This document shows, piece by piece, positions 9,208 through 16,508 of a DNA stretch of 50,564 nt. Position 1 is the first letter of the stretch; each line of letters starts with the position of its first letter. Position numbers and translations under genes: made by a program. The notes below the pieces were generated by a model that ran no database searches, had not been told where the DNA came from, and was given only the letters and a program-made list of their open reading frames with translations. This DNA is from an uncultured Myxococcales bacterium. GTDB lineage: Bacteria > Myxococcota_A > Polyangia > Polyangiales > Polyangiaceae. The DNA lies in NCBI GenBank assembly GCA_937902985.1, contig CALFNG010000031.1:1-50564 (forward strand), given 5' to 3'.

Positions 9208-10344
9208 GTGGCCGACGGAACACCGCGAGAAACAGACGAACTCCGTCAGGAGATGGCCCGCCTCGACGCGCGGATCGTGACCATCCTCGACGAGCGAGCG
9301 CGTCTCGCCCGGCAAGTTCGAGAGCTTCGTCGCAACCAGGCGCCGGCGCTTCCGGTCGGCGATCACGCCGCGATCCGCGAGCTCGTCGAGCGATCCAGCG
9401 GCGACATGCCGAAAGACGCGCTCCGCGACGTCTTGGGCGCAGTCTTCGCCGCGGGCCTGGCGCTCGAACTCCCGGTCAAGGTCGCGTTCGTCGGCCCCGA
9501 AGGCGGAGCCGGGCACGCCGCCGCGCGCAGCCGGTTCGGTTCGGGCGAATCCATGCTCGTCCCGGCGGACAGCGCGGTCGACGCGCTCGAAGAGGTGTCG
9601 CGCAAGCGCGCCGAGTTCGCAGTCGTCCCTTTCGAGACGTCCACCGAGGGCCCGCTCCAGCCCACCATCCAGGCGTTGATGACGCGCGATTTGCGCATCG
9701 CCGAGATGGTCGACAACGACTTCGCGCTGCACCTCGTCAGCCGGACAGGCACGCTCGGGCCCACGCTCGGGCCCACACTAGGGCCCACACTAGGGCCCAC
9801 ACTAGGGCCCACACTAGGGGAAGTGTCGAAACTGTACGGAACGGCGGCCGACCACGCGCTGTGCCGGCGCTTCATCGAGCGGCTCGCCTCGCACGTGGCG
9901 GTCGTCCCGGTGGCCAGTCCCCGATTGGCTTGCGAGCTCGCCGCGGGCGAGAGCGGCGCCGCGGCGATTGCTGGCGAGGCCGTCGCCGCCTCGTTCGGCC
10001 TCGAGATCGCGACGCGCGACGTCCGCGACGCCGAGAGCGCGCGCGTGCGATACGCCATCGCGGGGACGCGCCCTTCTGCGCGAACGACCGACGAGGCGAC
10101 GTCGTTCGTCTTCAGCGTGCAAGACGCGCCCGGGTCGTTGCTCGACGTTCTACGCGTCTTCGCCGACCGTGGAATTCGCCTGACGAAAATTCACAGCCAC
10201 CCATCCGATGGCTCGAACTGGAGCTACCTCTTCTATGCCGAGGCGTCGGGTCACTTCACGGACCGGTCGCTCGTGACCGCCTTCGAAGAGATCAAGCGAA
10301 TGACCCGGCTGTTCAAGCTCCTCGGTTCCTATCCGGCGCGGTAG
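9208..10344 (+). CDS. PheA-like protein (chorismate mutase, prephenate dehydratase-like and ACT domains) with altered active sites
   Basis: Domain order matches the bifunctional P-protein: an AroQ-type helical domain (residues 10-85), a prephenate dehydratase-like domain (90-288) and an ACT domain (298-375). Key dehydratase residues known from the E. coli enzyme are replaced in a hand alignment: Asn160 is Thr144, Ser208 is Gly211, Gln215 is Leu218, and Thr278 of the TRF motif is Val280 (VRY). In the mutase domain the catalytic Glu52 position is Ile and Lys39 is Arg. The ACT phenylalanine-binding ESRP motif reads HSHP. A TLGP tandem repeat (residues 182-205) interrupts the dehydratase fold. 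The fold is kept; classical activity is doubtful. GTG start at 9208. It begins a coupled run with a lipoprotein and an AroA-like gene. Confidence 0.85.
   Translation: MADGTPRETDELRQEMARLDARIVTILDERARLARQVRELRRNQAPALPVGDHAAIRELVERSSGDMPKDALRDVLGAVFAAGLALELPVKVAFVGPEGGAGHAAARSRFGSGESMLVPADSAVDALEEVSRKRAEFAVVPFETSTEGPLQPTIQALMTRDLRIAEMVDNDFALHLVSRTGTLGPTLGPTLGPTLGPTLGPTLGEVSKLYGTAADHALCRRFIERLASHVAVVPVASPRLACELAAGESGAAAIAGEAVAASFGLEIATRDVRDAESARVRYAIAGTRPSARTTDEATSFVFSVQDAPGSLLDVLRVFADRGIRLTKIHSHPSDGSNWSYLFYAEASGHFTDRSLVTAFEEIKRMTRLFKLLGSYPAR
9751..9820 (+). repeat. 12-bp tandem repeat inside the PheA-like gene
   Basis: Five full units and one partial unit. The first two read ACGCTCGGGCCC and the later ones ACACTAGGGCCC. 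All encode Thr-Leu-Gly-Pro. The frame is preserved, so copy-number change would lengthen or shorten the protein by four residues per unit. The rare CTA leucine codon in the later units suggests recent expansion from a single variant unit. Confidence 0.9.
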
Positions 10345-10356
10345 TCTGCCGGATCG

Positions 10357-11292
10357 ATGCATCGACGCCATCTACTGGTCCTCGTCGCGCTTCTCTTCGG
10401 GTGTGGTGGAAAGGGCGCGGCCTCGGGAGCCGACGCGAAGACCGTCGCGGACGCCGACCCGGTCGCACTCTTGCCGCCGTCGTCGATCGTGGTCGCGAGC
10501 CTCGAGGCGCGCGCGATGTACGCCAGCGCGTCGATCGGCGCGACGCTCGCGACGTTCACTGGCTCGCTCGTGCCCTTCGGGCCGGAAGCGGGGTTTCAGG
10601 CGTCTCGCGACGTGGACCGCGTGACCTTCGGCGCCTACGCGGGCAGCGAGGCCGACGTGGCCGCCGTGCTCAGCGGCCGCTTCGATCTCGACAAGATCGC
10701 CGCCGCGACGACGACGAAGACCGGCGCAGCCATCGTAAAGGCGACCTACGCCGGCTTCGCGACCGACGCCATCGGCGCCGTCACGATCGCGCCGATCACC
10801 GCGAAGACGCTGGTCGTCGGAACGAGCGAGCGCGTCCACCGCGTGCTCGATCGCCTCGGATCCGGTGCGCTCCAGCGGTCGGTTCCCCCGTGGGTGTCGG
10901 ACACGTTGAACACGCCGGGCGCGCAGTTCGTGGTCACGGCCGACTTTGCGACCCAGCCGATTGCCTCCGCGACCATTGGCTCGATCAATCTGTCGTGGCT
11001 CAAAGGGTTGCAGGTCGTCCGCGCGATCGGCGACTTCGACGCCCCGGGGATCAACGTCGCAGGAACCCTCACCTACGGCACTCCGACCGAGGCGCAGGGC
11101 GCGGCCGATGGCATCCATGTCCTCGACGGTCTGCAAAAGGTGCTTGCTCCGCTGCTCCTCGGAGCCAGGGTGCAAAACCTCCAGGTCTCGAGCAGCGGCA
11201 GCGACGTCAGCTGCAAATTCGCCCTCGACGGCTCGTCCATTGGCGCGCTGCTGTCGCTCGCGACTCGTTACGCGCTGCCGCCCGCACGATGA
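10357..11292 (+). CDS. Predicted lipoprotein, unknown function
   Basis: 311 residues. An N-terminal signal peptide (MHRRHLLVLVALLFGC) ends in a lipobox LFGC at residues 13-16, so the mature protein should be lipid-anchored outside the inner membrane. The rest is a Ser/Thr/Ala/Gly-rich beta/alpha protein with hydrophobic strands such as KTLVVGTSERVHRVLDRL and AQFVVTADFA. It ends in an ATGA overlap with the AroA-like gene, so the two are probably translationally coupled. The layout (a Pro-Pro start, a VDRVTFGAY-like strand, a TLVVGTSE-like strand, a late KFALDGSS strand) loosely resembles that of the second lipoprotein at 13382-14470. The two may be distant paralogues. No catalytic motif is visible. 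Confidence 0.8.
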   Translation: MHRRHLLVLVALLFGCGGKGAASGADAKTVADADPVALLPPSSIVVASLEARAMYASASIGATLATFTGSLVPFGPEAGFQASRDVDRVTFGAYAGSEADVAAVLSGRFDLDKIAAATTTKTGAAIVKATYAGFATDAIGAVTIAPITAKTLVVGTSERVHRVLDRLGSGALQRSVPPWVSDTLNTPGAQFVVTADFATQPIASATIGSINLSWLKGLQVVRAIGDFDAPGINVAGTLTYGTPTEAQGAADGIHVLDGLQKVLAPLLLGARVQNLQVSSSGSDVSCKFALDGSSIGALLSLATRYALPPAR

Positions 11293-12653
11293 CGGCGCTC
11301 GTCGTCCACCCCGCGGAGCGCCCGCTCGTCGGCAGCATCCCGGTCCCGTCGGACGCGGGCATCGGACACCGTGCGCTGCTCTTCGCGGCCGTCGCCCAGG
11401 GCAAATCGCGCCTCGTCTCGTTCTCTGCCGTCGACGGCACGCTGACGACCGCCGCTTGCCTGCGGGCTCTCGGAGCGTCGATCGACTCGGTCGGTCACGA
11501 CGTCATCATCTCGGGCGCCGGCCTCGGCGGGCTTCGCGCGCCCGAGCGCGGGGTCTACTGCGGCGCGTCCAGCACGACGATGCACCTCCTGTGCGGTCTT
11601 CTGGCCACGATGCCCTTTCGAGCGACGCTCGCCGGCGACGGCGCGCTTTCTCGAGAGGCGATGACGCCGCTGGTGACGCCTCTCCGGCGGCGCGGAGCGC
11701 TCGTCGAAGGGACTGGGCGCGACGGCGAGGTCACGGCCCCCCTGGCGATCGAGCCTCTCCCCGACCGACGGCTCCTGTCGAGGATCGAGTACGAGAGCCC
11801 TGCGGCAAGCGCCGACGTGAAGGCGGCCGTCTTGATCTCGGGCTTGCGCGCCGAAGGTGCCACGCTGTTCAAGGAGCCCACGGTCTCGCGTGACCACACC
11901 GAGCGCTTGCTCGACGCGCTCGGCGCCCCGATACGAACGTTCGGCACCGTGGTCCAGCTCGACCCCACGGCCTGGGACGGACACATCGCGGGTTTCGAGT
12001 TCGCAATTCCCGGAGACCTGTCGGCCGCCGCCTTCCTCATCCTCGCCGCGAACCTCGTGCCCGGCTCTCGCGTGACGGCGCGCGCGGTCAGCGTGAACCC
12101 GACGCGATCGGGCCTGCTCGAGATCGCGCGCGACATGGGCGCGGGGCTCACGATCGAGCCGCAGGGCGAGCGCCAGGGCGAACCGGTCGCCGCGCTGCAC
12201 GCGTGGCGCGCAGGCCTCCGCGCGGCGACGATCGGCGGCGAGACCGTCGCGCGCGCGAACGACGACATCCCCGTCGCCTGCGCGCTCGCCGCGCGAGCCG
12301 CGGGAACGAGCCGCGTCACGTTCGGCGACGGCGAGCTTGGAGCGGAGGCGGTGCGTCGACGGGTCGCGCCGCTGCTAGGCGCGCTCCGGTCGTTCGGCGT
12401 GCAGTGCGACGAGCGGCCGGGCGGCGTCGAGATCGAGGGCCGAGAAGGACCCCTCCGCGCCGCTCGTATCGAGAGCGGTGGCGATCCCTCGCTCGCGATG
12501 ACCACAGCGATCCTCGCGCTCGCCGCCGACGGGCCGACGCGGATCGAGGACGCGGCTTGCATCGGGTCGCGGTATCCGAAATTCGTGGCGACCCTTCGCG
12601 CCCTCGGCGCTCGCGTCGACGTCGAGAGCGAGAGCGAGAGCGAGAGCGGGTGA
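11289..12653 (+). CDS. AroA (EPSP synthase)-like protein lacking several PEP-binding residues
   Basis: 454 residues with the full two-domain EPSP synthase fold: SRDHTERLL (200-208), FAIPGDLSAAAFLILAA (238-254) and VNPTRSGLLEIARDMGA (269-285) are family hallmarks, closest to the class II type. Aligned by eye with E. coli AroA and CP4 EPSPS, the Lys-Ser of GDKSISHR is Ala24-Gly25. The Arg of the RPM motif (E. coli Arg124) is Glu123. Gln171 is Asp176. Arg386 of DHRMAM is Ser401. Arg28, Arg201, Asp325, Glu353 and Arg356 are kept. Loss of Lys22, Arg124 and Arg386 removes much of the phosphoenolpyruvate pocket, so normal catalysis is unlikely. The C-terminus ends in a Glu-Ser repeat. The start overlaps the lipoprotein stop (ATGA); cmk follows after 36 bases. 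Confidence 0.85.
   Translation: MTALVVHPAERPLVGSIPVPSDAGIGHRALLFAAVAQGKSRLVSFSAVDGTLTTAACLRALGASIDSVGHDVIISGAGLGGLRAPERGVYCGASSTTMHLLCGLLATMPFRATLAGDGALSREAMTPLVTPLRRRGALVEGTGRDGEVTAPLAIEPLPDRRLLSRIEYESPAASADVKAAVLISGLRAEGATLFKEPTVSRDHTERLLDALGAPIRTFGTVVQLDPTAWDGHIAGFEFAIPGDLSAAAFLILAANLVPGSRVTARAVSVNPTRSGLLEIARDMGAGLTIEPQGERQGEPVAALHAWRAGLRAATIGGETVARANDDIPVACALAARAAGTSRVTFGDGELGAEAVRRRVAPLLGALRSFGVQCDERPGGVEIEGREGPLRAARIESGGDPSLAMTTAILALAADGPTRIEDAACIGSRYPKFVATLRALGARVDVESESESESG
12624..12647 (+). repeat. Hexanucleotide repeat at the 3' end of the AroA-like gene
   Basis: Four units of GAGAGC encode the terminal Glu-Ser repeat of the AroA-like protein. Slippage here would only change a disordered tail. 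Confidence 0.85.
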
Positions 12654-12689: not shown

Positions 12690-13385
12690 GTGGGTCGTTC
12701 CCGTCCGATCGTCGCCATCGATGGTCCCGCAGGAGCGGGAAAGAGCACCGTCGCGAAGCGCCTGGCCGATGTACTCGGCTACGTGCTCGTCGACACCGGC
12801 GCCATGTACCGCGCGGTGGCGCTCGCGGCGCAACGCGTCGGAATCGGGTGGGACGAGGCCGAGCCCGTCGGCGAGCTCGCCCGGCAGCTGGTAGCGCGGA
12901 GCGCCCTCGGTTTCGAGCGCGATCCCGAGCGCGGGGTCAGGGTCCGCCTCGACGGCGCAGACGTGACCGACGCGATCCGTGCCCCCGAGATCGGAATGGG
13001 CGCGAGCACGGTCTCGGCGCACAAGGCCGTTCGCGACGCCCTCCTGGCGATGCAGCGGCAGGCCGGGCGATCGGGCGGCGTCGTCCTCGAGGGTCGCGAC
13101 ATCGGCACCGTCGTCTTCCCCGAGGCCGACGCCAAGTTCTTCCTCACGGCGCGCCCCGAGGTCCGGGCGCGCAGGCGCTTCGACGAGCTGACGGCCAGGG
13201 GCGCGAAGGTGTCGTTCGAACAGACCCTCGACGAGGTGCGCCAGCGCGACGAGCAAGACACGACGCGGGCGGTCGCGCCGCTCCGTCAGGCGCCCGACGC
13301 CACCCTGGTCGACAGCTCCGAGATCGGCATCGAAGAAGCCGTCGCCCGAATGGCCGAACGGGTCCGTGCGGGGGCAAGCGGTTGA
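12690..13385 (+). CDS. cmk: Cytidylate kinase
   Basis: Phosphorylates CMP and dCMP with ATP in pyrimidine salvage and RNA turnover. All family motifs are intact: Walker A GPAGAGKST near residue 12, DTGAMYRAVALAA, the NMP-binding segment VLEGRDIGTVVFP, and the lid motif RDEQDTTRAVAPL. 231 residues is the normal length. The GTG start at 12690 puts IVAIDGPAGAGKS at the expected distance. The intact active site contrasts with the degraded AroA-like protein just upstream. The stop overlaps a TTG start of the next gene, and rpsA lies downstream, the usual cmk-rpsA order. Confidence 0.95.
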   Translation: MGRSRPIVAIDGPAGAGKSTVAKRLADVLGYVLVDTGAMYRAVALAAQRVGIGWDEAEPVGELARQLVARSALGFERDPERGVRVRLDGADVTDAIRAPEIGMGASTVSAHKAVRDALLAMQRQAGRSGGVVLEGRDIGTVVFPEADAKFFLTARPEVRARRRFDELTARGAKVSFEQTLDEVRQRDEQDTTRAVAPLRQAPDATLVDSSEIGIEEAVARMAERVRAGASG

Positions 13386-14470
13386 CGATCGCGTGGAGGA
13401 CGGCGTTCCTCGCGCCGATCTCGCTCACTTCGCTCATCTGCGCCCCCGCGCCCCTCGCCTGCGGCGGAAACGCGCTCGCTCCGTCGACGCAGACTTCGCC
13501 GGTGGCGGCAGAGCCCCGCTGGGAAGACGCCTTCGACGCGACGCCGGAGCTCATGGTCTTCGTGTACCCGTCGGCGCTCCGGTCGGACCGCGTCTACGGT
13601 CCCCTGCTTCGCCGCGCGATTGCGCTCGTGCGGCAGCGGAGCCGGGTGGTCGCCCAGACCCGTGCGCTCGACGCGATGGAAGACGCCGACGAGGTGATTC
13701 TCGGTCTTCGTCCCGGGTCGTCGGAGACGGCGGAGGACATCGTCGTCGTCGTTCGCGGCGTGCGCGCCGATGTGGACCCGGCGGCGCTGGTCGATTCCGA
13801 AGGCCGTCCCCTCTGGGCACCTGGCCCGATGGGCCGCGTGCGGGAGCTCATCCGCGCCGATGCGGCTTCCCCGCCATCCGAGGCCGGCGAAGTCCCTGCC
13901 TCTCTCTTCGAACTGCCTGGGCGCACGTGGGTCATCGCCGCGGGCGACGCGCGTACCCGGGCGCGGTCCGCGTTCACGCGTACGCCCGCGCGCTCCCGCT
14001 CTCGGGCGCCGGTCGAGCCTGGGGCCGACGACGCCCTTGTCACCATCCGGATCGACGGGGCCGCGCTCGTCCGACGCGTTCCCGCGCTGCGTTCGGGCGA
14101 TCTTGGCAGCGTGGGTCGCCGCCTCGACGACATGACGTTCGAGCTCGCCGCCGGCTCGGTCGACGGGGTCGCGCCCGCCGACGGCGGACCTCTGCCGGCC
14201 CCGGACCGCAAGGTCAAGGCGACCCTTTCGTATGCGAACGAAGACGCCGCGGCGCTCGCCGAGTCCACGGTGCGTCAGGCGCTCGAAGCGATCCAGCGAA
14301 AGAAGCCCGAGGGGCTCGCGTGGCTTCCGAGCGAGCAGATCACCGTCGAGCGTCCTCCCCCAGGGAAGCGGGTCGTCCTGACAACCCCGCTCCCTCCGCG
14401 CCTCATCGATGCGCTCCTGCATGCGGGCGCGCCCCGACCCGGCCCGGGCGAGCGCGATCCGCCGCCCTGA
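13382..14470 (+). CDS. Predicted lipoprotein, unknown function
   Basis: 362 residues starting from TTG at 13382, overlapping the cmk stop as TTGA. This start is chosen because it alone supplies a signal peptide (MTIAWRTAFLAPISLTSLIC) and a lipobox PLAC before a Gly-Gly. The mature part starts with an Asp/Pro linker and contains alternating strands (ELMVFVYPSAL, DIVVVVRGVRADVD, RTWVIAAGDART, ALVTIRIDGAALV). Its layout parallels the lipoprotein at 10357-11292. No enzyme motif is recognised. Gene reality is supported by coupling and the signal peptide; a later ATG start around 13552 is less likely. Confidence 0.75.
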   Translation: MTIAWRTAFLAPISLTSLICAPAPLACGGNALAPSTQTSPVAAEPRWEDAFDATPELMVFVYPSALRSDRVYGPLLRRAIALVRQRSRVVAQTRALDAMEDADEVILGLRPGSSETAEDIVVVVRGVRADVDPAALVDSEGRPLWAPGPMGRVRELIRADAASPPSEAGEVPASLFELPGRTWVIAAGDARTRARSAFTRTPARSRSRAPVEPGADDALVTIRIDGAALVRRVPALRSGDLGSVGRRLDDMTFELAAGSVDGVAPADGGPLPAPDRKVKATLSYANEDAAALAESTVRQALEAIQRKKPEGLAWLPSEQITVERPPPGKRVVLTTPLPPRLIDALLHAGAPRPGPGERDPPP

Positions 14471-14486
14471 TACCCGTCACGTGCCT

Positions 14487-14515
14487 TTGACAGACGGGCT
14501 CCGGCACGCTAAGTG
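14487..14515 (+). promoter_or_regulatory. Candidate promoter upstream of rpsA
   Basis: A perfect TTGACA at 14487-14492 lies 17 bases before TAAGTG (14510-14515), a weak -10. The -10 region overlaps a short palindrome GGCAC-GCTAA-GTGCC (14503-14517). The half-site resembles the one at the FmdB-type promoter. rpsA starts about 145 bases downstream, leaving a leader in which S1 autoregulation could act, though none is shown. Confidence 0.35.
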
Positions 14516-14660
14516 CCAGCGTCCCGAGGCTGGCTTTCGAGGATGCGTCCGTCCGTCGCCAGCCCAGGATTTTACCCAACCCAACGCGTGCATCGCACGC
14601 ACACTAGTCGCACCGCTAGCACCGCTCGCAGGCGCGACTGCCGAGGATCCCCCGAACATC

Positions 14661-16500
<1,840 letters not shown>

Positions 16501-16508
<8 letters not shown>

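Follow-up and report, generated by a model that had tools for sequence, protein, structure and literature searches.

The closest precedent for the protein described here is, by analogy, the type I dehydroquinase domain of Candida albicans Aro1, which is inactive through active-site substitutions and still folded, the step being carried out by Dqd1 (PMC9074039). This domain is active in species without Dqd1 and dead where Dqd1 is present (PMC9074039). The likeness lies in a shikimate-pathway part that is dead yet folded where an enzyme of an unrelated type takes the step. Nevertheless, the dead part of Aro1 is one domain of a five-domain polypeptide, the retention of which is easily explained, whereas the protein studied here is free-standing; and in contrast to Aro1, the class II AroA shows several residue losses and some gene deletions. 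EPSP synthase (AroA) is among the best studied metabolic enzymes and is the target of glyphosate; we found no report of its conversion to a selected pseudoenzyme and, among open-licence papers, no literature on an EPSP synthase pseudoenzyme or on the two aroA genes of Sorangium.

The window, a stretch of 50,564 nucleotides from an uncultured member of the Polyangiaceae, carries an aroA-like gene (aroA*, encoding P0001) in the gene order pheA-P0002-aroA*-cmk-rpsA (Table 1). In almost every relative checked, cmk adjoins the class II aroA, and it marks the ancestral aroA position. As read from the sequence, the stop codon of P0002 and the start codon of aroA* share 4 nt (ATGA). P0002 itself has no Pfam or NCBIfam match; it is conserved across the family between pheA and aroA or cmk, even where aroA is deleted. 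Short repeats occur in two of the genes: a 12-bp tandem repeat (5.2 copies, window 9757-9819) reads as (GPTL)n inside the PheA-like protein, and a 6-bp CGAGAG repeat (window 12623-12648) forms the ESESESES tail of the AroA-like protein just before its stop codon.

Table 1. Operon genes in the window and substituted pocket positions of P0001 (residues replaced are in E. coli numbers).
Feature	Position	Strand	Remark
PheA-like chorismate mutase/prephenate dehydratase/ACT gene	9208..10344	+	Pfam PDT, ACT, CM_2; same operon
P0002, lipoprotein-like conserved protein	10357..11292	+	upstream neighbour of aroA* in the operon
pseudo-AroA (putative class II EPSP synthase descendant; P0001), 454 aa	11289..12653	+	catalytically dead by sequence
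A23-G24 replacing catalytic/PEP-binding Lys-Ser (K22-S23)	11355..11360	+	alignments
A93-S94-S95 replacing N-S-G (N94-x-G96)	11565..11573	+	alignments
E123 replacing PEP-binding Arg (R124)	11655..11657	+	alignments
D176 replacing Gln (Q171)	11814..11816	+	alignments
A354-V355-R356-R357-R358 replacing K340-E341-x-x-R344	12348..12362	+	catalytic Lys and Glu lost, Arg kept
P400-S401 replacing H385-R386	12486..12491	+	alignments
cmk, (d)CMP kinase	12690..13385	+	TIGR00017, 221.8 bits; directly 3' of aroA*
rpsA ORF (30S ribosomal protein S1)	14409..16508	+	NF004952, 753 bits; exact start uncertain

The threonine of the TRF motif of prephenate dehydratase is catalytic. This motif is lost in the operon PheA-like protein, which reads VRY in the window and xRY, xRH or xRF in most of the family members inspected, the other families of the order having mostly TRF. 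A second, stronger prephenate dehydratase is encoded elsewhere in the window genome (contig C236). The operon may hold two aromatic pseudoenzymes, one PheA-like and one AroA-like.

P0001 resembles the class II EPSP synthases (CP4, 2GG6; S. pneumoniae, 1RF4; B. halodurans, 3RMT) over its whole length, and shares with them the SRDHTE and NPTR motifs and the place before cmk. Its PF00275 match spans the entire protein (222 bits vs a gathering cut-off of 22.8), the best solved match by sequence is the class II enzyme 3RMT (7.6e-77) and among NCBIfam models the AroA part of NF011381 fits best. It differs from these enzymes in the absence of PEP-binding and catalytic residues and in a TIGR01356 score of 234.8 bits, below the equivalog cut-off of 287.25 bits, the orthologue from the same genus (G002) scoring 345.5 bits. 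The frame is open throughout its 454 codons, which is not what a broken-frame pseudogene would look like. MurA (UDP-GlcNAc enolpyruvyl transferase) belongs to the same fold superfamily (Z about 36-37), but P0001 matches MurA models only weakly and the genome's own MurA sits on another contig (C400). Altogether, the open reading frame, the PF00275 and 3RMT matches and the alignments agree with the original prediction of a full-length AroA-like protein that stands in the aroA position and lacks PEP-binding residues.

To describe the pocket, P0001 was aligned with canonical orthologues, in sets of 11 and of 144 relatives, and residues are given in E. coli numbers. The changes are K22A, S23G, N94A, G96S, R124E, Q171D, K340A, E341V, H385P and R386S, and the equivalent of R100 is H99; the loop with the K340 and E341 equivalents carries a 2-residue insertion. 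Residues R27 (R28 in P0001), T97, S169, S197, D313 (D325), R344 (R358) and the class II R201 are retained. Of the catalytic and PEP-binding residues of EPSP synthase K22, R124, K340, E341, R344, H385 and R386, P0001 keeps R344 (R358) only. K22, D313 and E341 have been named as catalytically important (PMC12256929), and P0001 is without two of these (K22 and E341). The losses are not due to chance, because G002 retains every one of these pocket residues at 60% overall identity. The alignments bear out the replacements predicted from the window for the RPM arginine (E123), Gln171 (D176) and the DHRMAM Arg386 (S401), as well as the survival of Arg28, Arg201 and Asp325. The Lys-Ser pair of GDKSISHR is indeed lost, at A23-G24 and not at positions 24-25 as first given. 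The listed survival of Glu353 and Arg356 as substrate-binding residues, however, finds no support: both alignments to relatives give K340 as A354 and E341 as V355, with only R358 matching R344. The replacements of N94 (A93), G96 (S95), R100 (H99) and H385 (P400), and the losses of K340 and E341, had not been noticed before.

A search of the genome for a second, canonical aroA had been set as a test beforehand, and a class I AroA was found on contig C507. PF00275 genes number exactly three in the window genome, namely aroA*, MurA and this class I AroA, in which 18/18 scored residues are present and which scores 428 bits with TIGR01356. Chorismate synthase and dehydroquinate synthase were found on contig C465, and it therefore seems that the class I enzyme serves the shikimate pathway of this organism; unlike the class II EPSP synthases, P0001 is apparently unneeded for the reaction. 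The class I gene and the one downstream of it, a putative RNA methyltransferase by its PF04013 match, overlap (L289, 17644-19966).

The fold of P0001 is predicted to be intact. An AF2 model built on an alignment of the window protein plus relatives reached a pLDDT of 91.4 and a pTM of 0.89, and superposed on 3RMT with Z 51.8 and rmsd 1.8 over 422 aligned residues (VIA-align 2); Z ranged from 48.9 to 51.8 across the three class II enzymes. By model and structure alignment, P0001 thus has the two-domain EPSP synthase fold. The fold is also predicted intact in a far more eroded copy (G065, 15/18 scored residues changed), with a pLDDT of 88.6 and a Z of 45.8 to a class II enzyme.

Both proteins were searched for in 58 relatives and in 108 family genomes, the loci were fetched, and 18 pocket residues were scored in 144 AroA proteins. 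The outcome is a dead-or-deleted pattern of the class II gene that goes with class I AroA. In genomes without class I AroA, 73/73 full-length class II copies are canonical (0-1 of 18 changes); most of the genomes studied are metagenome bins, and class I absence is certain only in complete ones. With a class I AroA, 31/31 class II copies are changed, at 2-17 of 18 positions. The frames of all 31 degenerate copies are intact save that of G117, which is cut by a contig end, and those checked by position still lie directly before cmk. At least six more genomes with a class I AroA (G011, G018, G026, G044, G045 and G056) have no class II gene at the cmk locus. G025 and G017 also have no class II gene before cmk; G025 has another AroA elsewhere, and in G017 (L118; 96% complete) no AroA was found, MurA being the sole PF00275 gene. 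Frame breaks in the G001 copy were considered as signs of decay and proved to be assembly N-gaps in an otherwise canonical gene.

The change can be followed within genera in three cases: the window genome against G001 and G002, G094 and G095 against seven canonical members of genus g5, and G069 against G034. Sorangium (g20) shows a gradient, with 2-4 of 18 residues changed in 5/6 copies and twelve in that of G123; the G122 copy passes TIGR01356, and enzymatic activity may persist in those Sorangium copies that are mildly changed. Because the class I copies split into several well-separated groups, the class I takeover probably happened more than once. A Cmk tree gives 11-13 state changes on the best tree; this tree is weakly supported, with only 2 independent pairs on well-supported branches, so that a sign test is powerless and the contrasts inside three genera are the count to rely on. 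Outside the order, coexistence of the two AroA types was not clearly seen among 86 genomes of the phylum, most of them from outside the order and searched with a P0001 query that detects class I AroA weakly.

Strong purifying selection acts on the class II gene after the loss. Omega was estimated with a pairwise codon model (GY94-type, F3x4). Sister pairs in which both copies are dead gave 0.027-0.126 overall, with LRT against 1 from 60 up: 0.114 for G065/G066 (15/18 residues lost; dS 0.51, LRT against 1 = 145), 0.027 for G101/G106 and 0.029 for G103/G104; Sorangium pairs gave 0.095-0.126 and the canonical genera 0.02-0.085. On the window branch, omega is 0.054 (LRT against 1 = 51), a rough value since dS is saturated in the window's own pairs, and one that averages the time before and after the loss. 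More change accumulated on this branch (2.18) than on two canonical sister branches (0.60 and 1.08). Columns conserved in the enzyme relax, from an omega of 0.006-0.010 in canonical copies to 0.014-0.093 in dead ones, whereas at variable polar columns, used as a proxy for surface positions, the constraint persists (0.043-0.158 in dead vs 0.081-0.125 in canonical copies). As in pseudogenes of displaced enzymes, the gene is redundant after a replacement enzyme and its active site is lost; here, however, the frame is intact, the codon-position GC pattern is kept and omega is 0.03-0.13. Decay to a pseudogene was therefore rejected, on intact frames and an omega far below 1. The intact uncut frames, the omega values of the window branch and of the dead sister pairs and the predicted fold all agree with the original prediction that the gene is not decaying. 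P0001 combines what marks a pseudoenzyme, a predicted fold that is kept with catalytic residues that are lost, and purifying selection after the loss.

Among 118 columns that are at least 95% conserved in the enzyme, it is chiefly those of the pocket that the dead copies have lost: across the 23 degenerate copies scored, K22 was retained in 4% and N94, Q171 and K340 in 0%. Residues of the fold were kept, and so were some charged positions typical of class II that lie away from the scored pocket, K178, E196, E318 and R322 at 100% and D202, E205 and R206 at 96%. Leu, Gly, Phe and Pro are over-represented among the retained residues, and the lost ones are polar. In a comparison over 17 degenerate copies, retention was 26% in pocket columns vs 68% in the other columns of equal conservation (p = 1e-7, Mann-Whitney). 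A search for convergent residues in the dead copies returned only five columns, none of which is a scored pocket residue. Genus g23 (eight species; L238-L244, L045) has fixed pocket changes (K22R, A170D, Q171H and K340D/E) and keeps S23, R27, D313, R344, H385, R386 and R201; conservation is higher in its pocket columns than in its other columns (0.77 vs 0.68), which suggests a ligand site that is remodelled, not emptied.

The exception is G069. This genome (90% complete) has a dead class II copy (15/18 changed) with an intact frame, and in it we found no class I or other AroA, no AroB, no AroC and no prephenate dehydratase (PheA); pheA is also absent from the assembled operon locus (L287, L300). 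Aromatic auxotrophy is thus possible in this member of the same family. Read most simply, G069 has lost the pathway and retains the dead AroA nonetheless, assembly gaps being possible at this completeness. A partnership of the dead AroA with the operon PheA was considered and rejected, G069 keeping the former without the latter.

Continued EPSP synthase activity of P0001, with different residues serving in the PEP pocket, would fit the kept D313 and R344 equivalents and the predicted intact fold; yet the protein has four lysines only (39, 178, 195 and 431), none of which aligns to the pocket, both K22 and E341 are gone, and a canonical AroA is present elsewhere in the genome, which makes continued activity most improbable. 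The window or the class I AroA contig could also come from a contaminating organism of the metagenome bin, an assembly of 563 contigs with an estimated contamination of 3.4%. Against this artefact, C507 and the window agree in composition (GC 0.682 vs 0.691; tetranucleotide r 0.98), and the same class I/class II pairing is found in single-contig Sorangium genomes (G122, G123 and G124) and many further assemblies. On these grounds we rejected a contaminant origin of the class I AroA, and we give the artefact very little credence.

Two further readings accept the loss of activity and explain selection differently. The pocket could have been remodelled, making the protein an enzyme or sensor for another ligand, with selection acting on that binding. 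The fixed and conserved pocket of g23 speaks for it, as do the retained R28, R201 and D325 on the shikimate-phosphate side of P0001. The pocket of P0001, however, is without several basic groups and has gained two acids, pocket residues are almost all replaced in genera g6, g57, g3 and g61 and differ among these lineages, and if these proteins bound a common new ligand, common new pocket residues would be expected, whereas none of the five convergent columns is a scored pocket residue. A new ligand fits g23 best and the window copy least, and as an explanation of P0001 we consider it fairly unlikely. The original prediction of a new role stands as far as decay is excluded, but another substrate is less likely for the window copy than a structural or regulatory part, because its pocket is emptied and not kept. 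Alternatively, the protein would have no function of its own: its translation would be needed for coupled cmk and rpsA, and only folding would be selected, toxic misfolding being avoided while catalytic residues drift. The ATGA overlap with the upstream gene and the bias of retained residues (Leu, Gly, Phe and Pro kept, polar ones lost) are consistent with this, and loss of catalytic residues may stabilise a fold. Yet several lineages have cleanly deleted the gene, P0002 then adjoining cmk, so coupling does not require aroA*; the gap to cmk is not tighter in dead copies (median 21.5 nt vs 18); and variable polar sites in dead copies (omega 0.04-0.16) are no nearer neutrality than in the active enzyme. 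The clean deletions and the constraint at variable polar sites weaken this explanation, which we regard as distinctly unlikely.

On balance, we lean slightly towards a non-catalytic role, probably the binding of another protein, for which this pseudo-EPSP synthase is retained and which comes to light whenever another AroA takes over catalysis. P0001 would descend from the class II EPSP synthase of an ancestral pheA-P0002-aroA-cmk-rpsA operon; a class I EPSP synthase would have taken over the reaction in the window's lineage, and the class II protein would then have lost PEP binding and catalysis. It has not been discarded: the analysis shows a protein of two domains that is predicted to fold and is under purifying selection, and hence a pseudoenzyme. 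The selected role would lie on the protein surface, in protein binding or as a scaffold or regulator. Counted against such a role are the pocket conservation in g23, the mildly changed Sorangium copies and the absence of the gene from at least six class I genomes, from which it follows that the role is dispensable. The side role is probably older than the loss of activity and existed in the active enzyme, because the dead protein was kept in many genera and in G069, where the pathway itself seems lost.

The host is a soil myxobacterium in which the dead copy occupies its normal operon place, and many related genera are alike. Annotation by family match and surveys of EPSP synthase glyphosate sensitivity will count such dead copies as enzymes. 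The conversion seems to be repeated in one bacterial order. Since three genera show the contrast internally and Sorangium, one of the cases, can be cultured, the hidden function is open to simple deletion and pull-down experiments. More broadly, and as a tentative proposal to which we give somewhat less than even weight, the class II EPSP synthase of the Polyangiales would have a second, non-catalytic function independent of aromatic biosynthesis, and would become a pure pseudoenzyme after each takeover, even in G069.
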